From contig CAKZPT010000049.1 in the NCBI GenBank assembly GCA_937139365.1, forward strand, positions 1 through 44,241: a stretch of 44,241 bases of DNA, given 5' to 3'. Each line of letters begins with the position of its first letter. Position 1 is the stretch's first letter. Source of the DNA: an uncultured bacterium (GTDB lineage Bacteria; Verrucomicrobiota; Kiritimatiellia; PWTM01). Positions 30,474-33,800 of this stretch are shown here, in pieces. The position numbers were made by a program, and so were the translations under genes. The notes beneath the pieces were generated by a model. It searched no databases. It was not told the DNA's origin and worked only from the letters and a program-made list of their open reading frames with translations.

Positions 30474-31265
30474 ATGCGCGGTTACCTGATCCGAACCGGC
30501 GAGCGCTGGATCGCTCGCTGGCGATTTTTGCGGCACGTGCTGGCCACGACAGCCGCGGCAGTGGGATACGGCCTGCGGCCCTCGACCTGGCGCCGGCCGG
30601 TCCACACCGTGCTGGCCCGTCAGATCCTGTTCACCGGCGTCGAGGCGGTCCCGTTCACGTTCATGGTCGCGGCCGTGCTCGGCTTGGCGGTGGTGCTCCA
30701 AACCCAGGTGATGTTGGCGAAGGTCGGCCAGACGGCCCTCGTCGGGCCGATCCTGGTGGCCGTCATCATCCGCGAGGCCGGGCCACTGTTGGTCAACCTG
30801 GTCGTCATCATGCGCAGCGGCACCGCGATCGCGTCGGAGCTGGCCACGATGAAGCTGACGGGGCAGGTGCGCGTGCTCGACGCGCAGGGCGTGGACCCCT
30901 TCCTCTACCTGGCCGTGCCTCGCGCGCTGGGCGTCGCGACCTCGGTGACGGTGCTGGCCATTCTCTTTATCGCGGCGGCGTTCTCCGTCGGCTACGTCGC
31001 GGGGCTGCTGATCGGCGCGCCCTTGGAGCCCGTGGACATCTTTCTCGATGGGATCGCCGGGGCGGTGATGCCTGCGGACCTGCTGAACGTGCTAGCCAAG
31101 ACGTTCCTGCCCGGGCTGCTGACGGGCGTCATCTGCACACTCGAGGGCCTTGCCGTCCGTGAGGCGTTGACGGAGATCCCGCAGGCCGCAACCCGGGGCG
31201 TCGTGCGGTCCGTCGCTGCCCTGTTCGCAACGGTCGTCGTCGTGTCGCTTCTGACCTACCTGTGA
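30474..31265 (+). CDS. mlaE: MlaE/YrbE-family ABC transporter permease
   Basis: A 263-residue inner-membrane permease of the MCE (mammalian cell entry) lipid transport family. The conserved permease core is clear: VEAVPFTFMVAAVLGLAVVLQTQ near 55-78, GPILVAVIIREAGPLLVNLVVIMRSGTAIASELATMK near 90-125 (the MlaE domain's EAGP and SGxAxxAELxTM motifs), and about five membrane spans. It would move lipids between the inner membrane and the MCE protein encoded by mlaD. A possible promoter lies in the 81-bp gap before it, but no ribosome binding site is evident. The stop overlaps the next gene by 4 bp (GTGA). Confidence 0.93.
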   Translation: MRGYLIRTGERWIARWRFLRHVLATTAAAVGYGLRPSTWRRPVHTVLARQILFTGVEAVPFTFMVAAVLGLAVVLQTQVMLAKVGQTALVGPILVAVIIREAGPLLVNLVVIMRSGTAIASELATMKLTGQVRVLDAQGVDPFLYLAVPRALGVATSVTVLAILFIAAAFSVGYVAGLLIGAPLEPVDIFLDGIAGAVMPADLLNVLAKTFLPGLLTGVICTLEGLAVREALTEIPQAATRGVVRSVAALFATVVVVSLLTYL

Positions 31266-31924
31266 ACGAAATCGCTCCCATTCTCGACGTCCGCGGAGTG
31301 CCGGGCGGCACAGCGGAACGGGTCTCCTTCGCCCTGGCGCCGGGCCAGTGGGCCTGGTGGCCCGCCGCGGACGCCGACGCCATGACGCGCATCGCCGACG
31401 GCCTTTGCGGCCTGGCCGCGTCCCCCGTCGGCGAGGTCCGATTCAACGGACGCTCCTGGGCCGACGCCGGTCCCGCCGAGCAGGCCCTGATGCGTTCGAA
31501 AATCGGGCGTGTGTTTGCCGCCACGGCATGGGTCGCCAACCTCGACGTGGACGAGAACATCGTTCTCGCGGGCCTGTACCACGGGGATCGCTCCCTCGAG
31601 GAATTGCTGGCCGAGGCCACCTGTTGGGCGCGTCGATTCGGCCTGTCGGAGTTGCCGGCCGGGCGGCCGGCGAGGGTCTCCACAAGGGACCTGCAACGGT
31701 GCCAATGGATTCGCGCCCTGCTCAACCGTCCGCGCCTGTTGCTCCTTGAGGCGCCGGAACAAGCGGCCGGCGACGCGGCGTCGGCATTTCGGGAGGCGGT
31801 GGCCGAGACGCTGACCGGCGGCGCGGCGGCCGTGTGGCTGACGTCGGGCGGCGGTCCGCCGCCGCCCGGCCTGCCGTCGCCCACATGGGCCGGCCCGACC
31901 CCGGGCATGGAGGTGAACCCATGA
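31262..31924 (+). CDS. Degenerate ABC ATPase-like subunit in the mlaF position
   Basis: A 220-residue protein between mlaE and mlaD, where the ATPase MlaF is normally encoded. The scaffold of an ABC ATPase is recognisable: PVGEVRFNGRSW, IGRVFAATAWVANLDVDENI, a family-like ALLNRPRLLLLEAP strand, and AAAVWLTSG. Every catalytic motif is altered. Walker A (G-x4-GK-S/T) is replaced by WPAADADAMT (about 33-42). The Q-loop Gln is Ala86. The signature LSGGQ is VSTRDLQ (139-145). Walker B LLLDEP is LLLLEAP (160-166) with the catalytic Glu changed to Ala, and the H-loop His is Ser195. The frame is intact and coupled by 4-bp overlaps to both neighbours, so it is a maintained gene rather than a pseudogene. 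GTG start. Confidence 0.72.
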   Translation: MNEIAPILDVRGVPGGTAERVSFALAPGQWAWWPAADADAMTRIADGLCGLAASPVGEVRFNGRSWADAGPAEQALMRSKIGRVFAATAWVANLDVDENIVLAGLYHGDRSLEELLAEATCWARRFGLSELPAGRPARVSTRDLQRCQWIRALLNRPRLLLLEAPEQAAGDAASAFREAVAETLTGGAAAVWLTSGGGPPPPGLPSPTWAGPTPGMEVNP

Positions 31925-32889
31925 ACGCGGCCGTTCCGTTCAAATTCCGCTACGTCCGCGAGATCGTCGGCACGTTCGTGCTGCTGGCCGTCGCGGCCGT
32001 CGTCGCGGGGCTGATCCTGCTGGCCAGGGCCCAGCGATGGTTCGAGCCGCAACTGGAACTGCGCCTCGCGTTTCCGCCGGAAGGTACGTTCGGCGTCCAG
32101 CGCGGCACCCGCGTCGAAATCCTCGGCGCACCGGCCGGACGAGTGGAAAGCGTCCATGTGCGGCCGGACCGGACCATCGAGGGGCGCCTGGTTCTCCGGC
32201 GCGACTTCGCGGCGTTTCTGCGCGCGGACTCGGAGGCGGTCGTGAAAAAGGAGTACGGCGTGGCCGGGGCGGCCTTCATCTCCATCGCCCTTGGGCAGGG
32301 GCCGCCCCTGTCGGCGGAGAACGCCACGCTGCCCGTGCGCAAGGACACCGAGCTGCTCGAGATCGTGCAGATCGTCGTCGAACAGATTCAAGAGGCCGTG
32401 CTGCCGGTGCTGCGGGAGGTCGAAGCGACGCTGAAGGAGTACCGGGGGTTGGCCGCCGATCTCCGCGACCCCGACCATTCGCTGCAGCAACTGCTCGGCC
32501 AGCTCAACGCGATCGCCGACGGATTGCGCAAGGGCGAGGGCACCGCCGGCCGACTGCTGCGCGATCCCGCGCTGGCGGACGAGGCGCAGAAGGCCGTTGC
32601 CCAGTTGCGTTCGCTGATTGGCAAAGTCGAAGAGGCCGTCACCGAAACGCGGGGCATCCTGCACAACGTTCGGATGGCATCCGAAGGGCTGCCCGGGGCG
32701 ATGGCGACGGTGCAGGGCGAATTGCGAGACGTGCCTGGCCTCGTATTGCAAACGCGGGCGACCTTGCAAGAAACCGAGAGGCTGCTAGCCGGTCTGCAGC
32801 GCCATTGGTTGCTGCGCGGGGCGATGGAACCGGCCGCCGACCTGCCAACGGTGCCGGCCGCCGCGCCCGCATCTGGAGAGGCGCCATGA
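31921..32889 (+). CDS. mlaD: MCE-domain lipid transport protein, MlaD-like
   Basis: A 322-residue membrane-anchored periplasmic protein. The N-terminal membrane span is at about 14-37, the MCE domain at about 42-120 (EGTFGVQRGTRVEILGAPAG, then VRPDRTIEGRLVLRRDFAAFL), and a long helical, probably coiled-coil region at about 140-295 that would form the hexameric lipid tunnel. The GTAGRLLRDPALADEAQ segment recurs in MCE proteins with tethered helices. It is twice the length of E. coli MlaD because of the helical extension. ATG 31921 overlaps the previous stop, and its own stop overlaps the TPR lipoprotein gene. Confidence 0.9.
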   Translation: MNAAVPFKFRYVREIVGTFVLLAVAAVVAGLILLARAQRWFEPQLELRLAFPPEGTFGVQRGTRVEILGAPAGRVESVHVRPDRTIEGRLVLRRDFAAFLRADSEAVVKKEYGVAGAAFISIALGQGPPLSAENATLPVRKDTELLEIVQIVVEQIQEAVLPVLREVEATLKEYRGLAADLRDPDHSLQQLLGQLNAIADGLRKGEGTAGRLLRDPALADEAQKAVAQLRSLIGKVEEAVTETRGILHNVRMASEGLPGAMATVQGELRDVPGLVLQTRATLQETERLLAGLQRHWLLRGAMEPAADLPTVPAAAPASGEAP

Positions 32890-33800
32890 ATTGCGCACAC
32901 GCCATCGTCACCGGGCTCGTCGCAGCGGCCGCGTTGTGGGGCGCCGGTTGTCGGACCCCGGCACCGGAGGCCGGCCCCGCACCCCATCCCGAAGTCCGGC
33001 GCCTCTGCGCGGCAGGCCGACGGGTGTGGGACCTCGGCGAGGCCGAACGGGCGGCGGAGCTCTATCGGCAGGCCCTCCTGGCCGCGCGCGCCTCCGGCCA
33101 CATGGAGTCGGTCGCCGCGGCGGCCGGCAGCCTCGCCGCCTGCCGTTTCGAGACCGGCGACCTGCCGGGCGCGCTGGACGCGATCCGCGAAGGCCGCGCG
33201 GCGCTCGCGCGGGTCGGAAGGCGGAACGCGGATCTCGCCGTGCTGGAAGGTCGGATCCTGCTGGCCTTGGAACGCACGGCCCCGGCCCGCGCCGCCGCCG
33301 CGGAGGCCCTCGCCGCCGGCGGTGGCGTAGCGGCGCGACTCTTGCTGGCGGAATGTGCACTGCGGGAAGGGCAAACGGCCGCCGCGGCGGGGCATGCGGC
33401 CGACGCCGCCAGCTCGATCGCCCGGAATGCCCCGGCCGCGTTGCGGGGATGGCTTGCGGAAACGCTTGCCCGAGTGCGTATGGCGGAGGGACAGACCGGC
33501 GAAGCCGCGTCGGCCTTCGAGTCGGCCGCCGCCTGGCGCGGTTCCGCCGGCCAGCGGCGCCAGGTGGTCCGTAACCTCGCCGCGGCCGCCACGGCGTATG
33601 CGGCCGCCGGCCATCCGTTGAAGGCGGCCGACTGCGCCTACCGCGCCGCCGCCGCGGAGCTGGACCCCTCCGCCGCCGAGTCGTGGTTGACGCGGGCCGA
33701 GGGCTGGCTGGACGATTCCGCCGACGCGCGACGACTCCGCGACCTGATCGCCGCGCTGCGCGCGGAGCGCTCAAGGGCGACCGCCACGGGATCGCCGTGA
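32886..33800 (+). CDS. TPR-type lipoprotein of the Mla operon
   Basis: A 304-residue lipoprotein: signal ending in lipobox LWGAGC (Cys22), followed by Ala/Arg-rich helical repeats (about 35-280) with TPR-like spacing, such as AERAAELYRQALLAARASG and GALDAIREGRAAL. It is probably anchored to the outer or inner membrane facing the periplasm. It sits where Mla operons often carry MlaA or another lipoprotein, but it does not resemble MlaA. By position it may be the outer-membrane partner of the MlaD tunnel; this is inference. Translation is coupled to mlaD and to the hydrolase by 4-bp overlaps on each side. Confidence 0.75.
   Translation: MNCAHAIVTGLVAAAALWGAGCRTPAPEAGPAPHPEVRRLCAAGRRVWDLGEAERAAELYRQALLAARASGHMESVAAAAGSLAACRFETGDLPGALDAIREGRAALARVGRRNADLAVLEGRILLALERTAPARAAAAEALAAGGGVAARLLLAECALREGQTAAAAGHAADAASSIARNAPAALRGWLAETLARVRMAEGQTGEAASAFESAAAWRGSAGQRRQVVRNLAAAATAYAAAGHPLKAADCAYRAAAAELDPSAAESWLTRAEGWLDDSADARRLRDLIAALRAERSRATATGSP

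Follow-up and report, generated by a model that had tools for sequence, protein, structure and literature searches.

Whether lipid transport by an MCE system needs ATP is the question raised by an Mla-type operon found in the window, that is, the whole stretch of 44,241 nucleotides from an uncultured Kiritimatiellia bacterium that was analyzed. ABC transporters are defined by their ATP-driven nucleotide-binding domains (NBDs), and the gene at the ATPase position of this operon, here called F2, encodes an ABC protein lacking the motifs for ATP binding and hydrolysis. The operon (mlaE2-F2-mlaD2) lies downstream of a shikimate kinase gene. F2 runs without interruption from a GTG start at 31262 to a TGA end at 31924, encodes 220 residues, and shares 4 bp with each neighbor (Table 1); the intact frame and the two overlaps described in an earlier note on this DNA were thus confirmed from the coordinates.

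The ancestry of F2 was recognizable at the levels of both sequence and predicted structure. F2 matched the Pfam ABC_tran family with an E-value of 3.4e-5, slightly under the cut-off, and phmmer matched it to LolD (2.1e-8) and to FtsE NBDs, while a profile built from 21 F2 orthologues matched LolD at 2.2e-21. An AlphaFold (AF2) model, computed from an alignment of 21 sequences, reached a pLDDT of 85 and a pTM of 0.86. Foldseek searches with this model returned the NBDs of MacB, LolD, and FtsE at 4e-11 to 1e-9 (TM ~0.65-0.73), the nearest solved folds being the NBDs of MacB, LolD, FtsE, and YbbA. As modeled, F2 is an ABC NBD fold, consisting of a RecA-like core and a helical subdomain. The ABC ATPase scaffold that the earlier note had proposed is therefore borne out by family match, LolD searches, AF2, and Foldseek, and structure prediction gave an ABC NBD rather than an unrelated fold. 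A chance likeness of a GC-rich open reading frame to an ABC NBD was considered and rejected, since profile, AF2, and Foldseek agree. In the tree, F2 sits on a long stem, apart from MlaF1, the intact MlaF that this genome also encodes; origins from MlaF and from a LolD/MacB-type NBD were left unseparated. The tail following the H-loop averages 29 residues in F2, versus 58 in the intact MlaF of the class.

The extent of motif loss was established by aligning F2 to MlaF1, and by scoring 13 catalytic positions in 42 F2 orthologues and in 27 intact MlaF copies from the same genomes. All 13 positions were canonical in 27/27 MlaF sequences, whereas F2 kept none of them in 12 of the 42 orthologues, one in 16, and four at most. 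The first Gly of Walker A, the Q-loop Gln, and the H-loop His were each retained in 0/42. The Walker B Asp is replaced by Glu in 38/42, and the hydrophobic Walker B strand is retained. None of the motifs of a functional ABC ATPase (Walker A, Q-loop Gln, LSGGQ, Walker B Asp-Glu, H-loop His) is complete in the window's F2, and at each of these sites few or none of the 42 orthologues have the canonical residue; the protein is encoded, as MlaF is, together with MlaE and an MCE protein, but it is not an intact catalytic ABC ATPase. The losses listed previously (Walker A, Q-loop Gln, LSGGQ, the catalytic Glu, and H-loop His) all hold, with the refinement that the Walker B strand, with Glu for Asp, and a patch after the Q-loop are kept. 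Because all 42 F2 sequences are dead at the same positions, with no change at any of the 13 in the 27 intact MlaF copies, the loss is not a matter of chance or local decay. The best reading of these alignments is that F2 would be unable to bind or hydrolyze ATP.

Table 1. Features of the mlaE2-F2-mlaD2 locus, in positions of the window.
Feature	Position	Strand	Basis
mlaE2, MlaE-fold permease of a divergent lineage co-occurring with F2	30474..31265	+	Pfam MlaE, E 1.5e-42; AF2; Foldseek; bit scores
MlaE2 coupling-helix region (MKLTGQVRVLDAQGVDP)	30849..30899	+	AF2 model; alignments; PMC7790496
F2, mlaF-like pseudo-ATPase: an ABC NBD scaffold whose motifs for binding and hydrolyzing ATP are missing	31262..31924	+	Frame, homology, fold, motif alignment
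Lost Walker A: AADADAMT replaces GxxGxGKS (MlaF GASGSGKS)	31364..31387	+	Alignment with intact MlaF; residue placement approximate, no motif remaining
Q-loop Gln position, Ala in the window's F2	31517..31519	+	Gln in 27/27 MlaF, 0/42 F2
F2-specific post-Q-loop motif W-V-A-N-L-D-V-D-E-N-I-V-L, presumed dock of the MlaE2 coupling helix	31529..31567	+	N, L, E, N in 42/42 F2; docking suggested by ABC architecture
Lost ABC signature: VSTRDLQR replaces LSGGMQKR	31676..31699	+	Alignment with intact MlaF
Degenerate Walker B LLLLEAP (MlaF ..LYDEP); Asp to Glu, catalytic Glu to Ala	31736..31756	+	Alignment with intact MlaF
H-loop His position, Ser in the window's F2	31844..31846	+	His in 27/27 MlaF, 0/42 F2
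mlaD2: TM helix, MCE domain, long helical C-terminal part	31921..32889	+	Pfam MlaD, E 5.6e-6; TIGR00996 MCE, 1.6e-10; after F2 at nearly all loci
Presumed fourth subunit, a TPR-like lipoprotein with a Cys near residue 22	32886..33800	+	phmmer homologues; weak TPR_16

The dead state is not recent, and it is widely shared. F2 was present in 93/240 sampled genomes of the class Kiritimatiellia, and in a phylum-wide sample of 241 genomes every strong match fell within this class, ordinary NBDs beginning near an E-value of 1e-26; none was found outside Kiritimatiellia among the sampled genomes of the phylum. Within the family to which the window belongs, 8/9 genomes, its own counted, carry a strong match at 40-100% identity (the exception is G007), and a genome-contig scan gave 21 F2 loci, mostly labeled Kiritimatiellae, Lentisphaerae, or Verrucomicrobia. 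The F2 sequences form one clade with a support of 100/100. The ATP-dead state was seen in all 42 orthologues examined; transitional forms with partly intact motifs were sought among them and none was found, the most diverged group (family f10) being equally dead. Comparison of orthologous operons thus places the motif loss in the whole lineage, with no orthologue found to retain intact motifs. The dN/dS of F2, computed only for pairs with usable dS since the saturated values of distant pairs were left out, was ~0.2-0.4, well below 1 and indicative of selective maintenance, and exceeded that of MlaE2 and MlaD2 in most pairs, F2 evolving faster than both. The suggestion in the earlier note that the gene appears maintained is strongly supported by class-wide conservation, monophyly, dN/dS, and the keeping of operon and partner permease. 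Recent decay was rejected, given conservation across many families, the single clade, and the dN/dS values. These findings strongly support the view that F2 is an ABC subunit of an Mla/MCE operon that is ATPase-dead, class-wide, and maintained by selection.

What F2 has kept lies away from the ATP site. The invariant residues are concentrated right after the Q-loop, where a near-invariant consensus, W-x-S-N-L-D-V-D-E-N-I, has the core N-L-x-x-x-E-N, and in the helix following the lost signature, which carries W-x-R-A. Two Trp residues are invariant as well: W66, which falls between the Walker A and Q-loop regions, and one in the H-loop strand. In ABC proteins, the region following the Q-loop forms part of the cleft that holds the coupling helix of the permease. 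In MlaE this helix sits between TM2 and TM3 (PMC7790496). By analogy, the post-Q-loop motif of F2 is presumed to dock on the coupling helix of MlaE2.

The permease itself is predicted to keep its fold. The AF2 model of MlaE2 (pLDDT 89) aligned by Foldseek with E. coli MlaE (6xbd) at a TM of 0.83-0.86, indicating a full MlaE fold, and a short helix was predicted at residues 131-137, between TM2 and TM3, at the place expected of a coupling helix; MlaE2 thus shows both marks of an MlaE permease, the fold and the TM2/TM3 coupling helix. Most of the E2 family shows a near-invariant DAQG-x-DP motif in this region. The family is well delimited, E2-type matches scoring 274-450 bits versus at most 127 bits for other MlaE proteins, and in one genome MlaE2 is present as two fragments. 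All 90 of the genomes with MlaE2 also have F2 (90/90), and three genomes have F2 without MlaE2, two of the three being <75% complete. The gene order E2-F2-D2 is kept at nearly all loci; no intact ATPase was seen beside MlaE2 among the loci examined, and no MlaB/STAS gene was seen in the operon. In one genus (G093/G107) and in G262 (C3; L107, L108), mlaE2 stands apart from F2-mlaD2, with all parts still present. At one further locus (L051 2101-2974), ~0.8 kb between mlaE2 and F2 encode a secreted protein whose tail is PEP-CTERM-like, and the gap in G313 is similar. Downstream, the lipoprotein gene overlaps mlaD2 as mlaD2 overlaps F2. Homologues of the lipoprotein, detected by phmmer, follow mlaD2 in ~34 loci, about half of them matching a simple pattern for a signal peptide plus lipobox Cys, and the protein appears to be a fourth subunit of the MlaE2-F2-MlaD2 system.

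How such a system might work was considered in light of these data. An ATP-independent MCE transporter, in which the pseudo-NBD F2 serves as a structural clamp on MlaE2, is fairly probable, and is the best-supported model because the docking region is kept, the pairing with MlaE2 is strict, and one genome (G093, see below) seemingly does without MlaF. F2 would bind the cytoplasmic coupling helices of its dedicated permease, as MlaF does; most likely two copies would clamp the MlaE2 dimer, which would then assemble with an MCE hexamer of MlaD2 and the TPR lipoprotein of the envelope. Lipid may move ATP-free, either down its own gradient or by another source of energy, as has been proposed for PqiABC. 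A fuller proposal could equally well prove right or wrong: lipids would pass between the membranes through an MlaE permease held by two pseudo-NBD clamps, driven by a gradient or by some other source of energy, and at least one lineage would have no other MCE system remaining. In E. coli, catalytically dead MlaF fails to support Mla function (PMC7367683), and single-site mutants suffice to abolish it; the E2 system must therefore move lipid differently, and an ATP-free Mla permease is not trivial.

A search for an intact MlaF elsewhere in the window's genome (97% complete) was successful: a second, canonical mlaE1-mlaF1-mlaD1 operon lies on another contig (C77, L001/L104), with a fully intact MlaF1. 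Intact MlaF was found in 30/31 F2 genomes tested, nearly always adjoining mlaE1. MlaE1 belongs to a lineage of its own, sharing 26% identity with MlaE2, and its coupling-helix residues differ, for example in having E where MlaE2 has G130. Extra sets also occur: G107 carries on C317 a third MlaE/MlaF/MCE set, whose MlaF is ~41% identical to MlaF1, and comparable sets are present in several genomes of the class.

The genome without intact MlaF is G093, a metagenome-assembled genome (MAG) of 110 contigs that is ~100% complete (L058, L105, L113). It retains F2 together with a single MlaE (MlaE2) and a single MCE protein (MlaD2); MlaF was not detected in it, the canonical mlaE1-mlaF1-mlaD1 operon seems to be absent, and a PF02470 search matched MlaD2 only. 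The region syntenic with the canonical operon of its sister, G107, continues into other genes past a breakpoint at which G107 has a multicopy gene. This breakpoint gene (L103 7658-8680, ~1 kb) has dozens of copies at ~70-78% identity in both genomes, and no Pfam match. The loss of MlaF in G093 is likely real, rather than an assembly gap, and as a single MAG it is suggestive evidence for an MlaF-free system.

Each ATP site of an ABC dimer requires the Walker A and B motifs from one NBD together with the signature from its partner. Because both Walker A and the signature are gone from F2, neither an F2:F2 nor an F2:MlaF1 dimer is expected to contain a complete site. This bears on the possibility that MlaE2 holds one F2 alongside one intact MlaF supplied by the canonical mla operon, which would make it an ATP-driven transporter with one working NBD. 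The presence of MlaF in nearly all F2 genomes would permit a shared ATPase, and PMC9947336 describes mycobacterial Mce1 and Mce4 as sharing one, MceG. Such a heterodimer is nonetheless unlikely: known degenerate transporters bind ATP and complete one consensus site, whereas a pair of F2 with its intact partner is predicted to complete neither; the intact MlaF comes from an operon with its own permease, whose coupling helix differs; and G093 retains E2, F2, and D2 without MlaF. Of the two mechanisms offered in the earlier note, pairing with a separate ATPase is therefore disfavored on these three grounds, and the passive clamp appears the better candidate.

It is quite unlikely that F2 is a regulator or assembly factor, holding a place on MlaE2 until an unlinked ATPase other than MlaF1 replaces or joins it to drive transport. 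The genomes do carry many other ABC ATPases, and for E. coli it has been suggested that MlaFB binds MlaE reversibly as a means of regulation (PMC7790496), but the operon has no candidate ATPase linked to it, and the strict pairing of E2 with F2 suggests an obligate subunit. An unrelated function of F2 away from MlaE2, with the NBD fold as a mere scaffold, might be read from the loci at which mlaE2 stands apart; it is very improbable, since MlaE2 and F2 still co-occur in those genomes and the TMD-docking region is the most conserved part of F2. The notion of a decaying pseudogene of a formerly normal mlaF, to which the fast evolution and poor family scores of F2 might point, can be practically dismissed, as the frame is intact in dozens of genomes over many families, with no frameshifts or stops seen in close relatives, residues are invariant in 42/42, dN/dS is well under 1, and the 4-bp coupling is retained at many loci.

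If the clamp model is true, a family of ABC-type transporters has abandoned ATP entirely. A natural MlaE transporter that keeps its NBD for shape, across the divergence of a class, would separate the structural from the motor role of the NBD, and the G093 lineage, seemingly with the F2 system only, makes the ATP question directly testable. Searches of open-access papers turned up no description of an MCE system with an ATPase-dead NBD, and an Mla-type MCE transporter with a pseudo-ATPase subunit is apparently undescribed in the literature searched.

Among known systems, E. coli MlaFEDB (PDB 6xbd/6xgy) shares the permease fold, the E, F, and D gene set, and an NBD-fold gene between the permease and MCE genes; it differs in that F2 is without any ATP motif and is shorter after the H-loop, a TPR lipoprotein gene is added, and MlaB/STAS is missing from the operon as seen here. 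The canonical mlaE1-mlaF1-mlaD1 operon of the same genome has the same three-gene order, but its MlaF1 is intact and its MlaE1 is of a separate lineage. E. coli PqiABC and LetAB are likewise MCE systems without a known ATPase, and Pqi has an outer-membrane lipoprotein (PMC10897342); for PqiA, that paper considers passive transport, PMF, or an ATPase not yet identified. Their inner-membrane part, however, is PqiA/LetA, whereas the window's system uses an MlaE-fold ABC permease, and PqiC carries an ABC auxiliary lipoprotein domain, whereas the lipoprotein here is TPR-like. Degenerate ABC transporters have also lost catalytic residues from NBDs that selection keeps (PMC7756269), but these still bind ATP and have one complete site, whereas in F2 a single subunit is missing both Walker A and the signature. 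The Veillonella parvula MlaEFD system is, similarly, a minimal three-gene Mla with an extended MlaD and no MlaABC (PMC10665443), although its MlaF is like those of model diderms.
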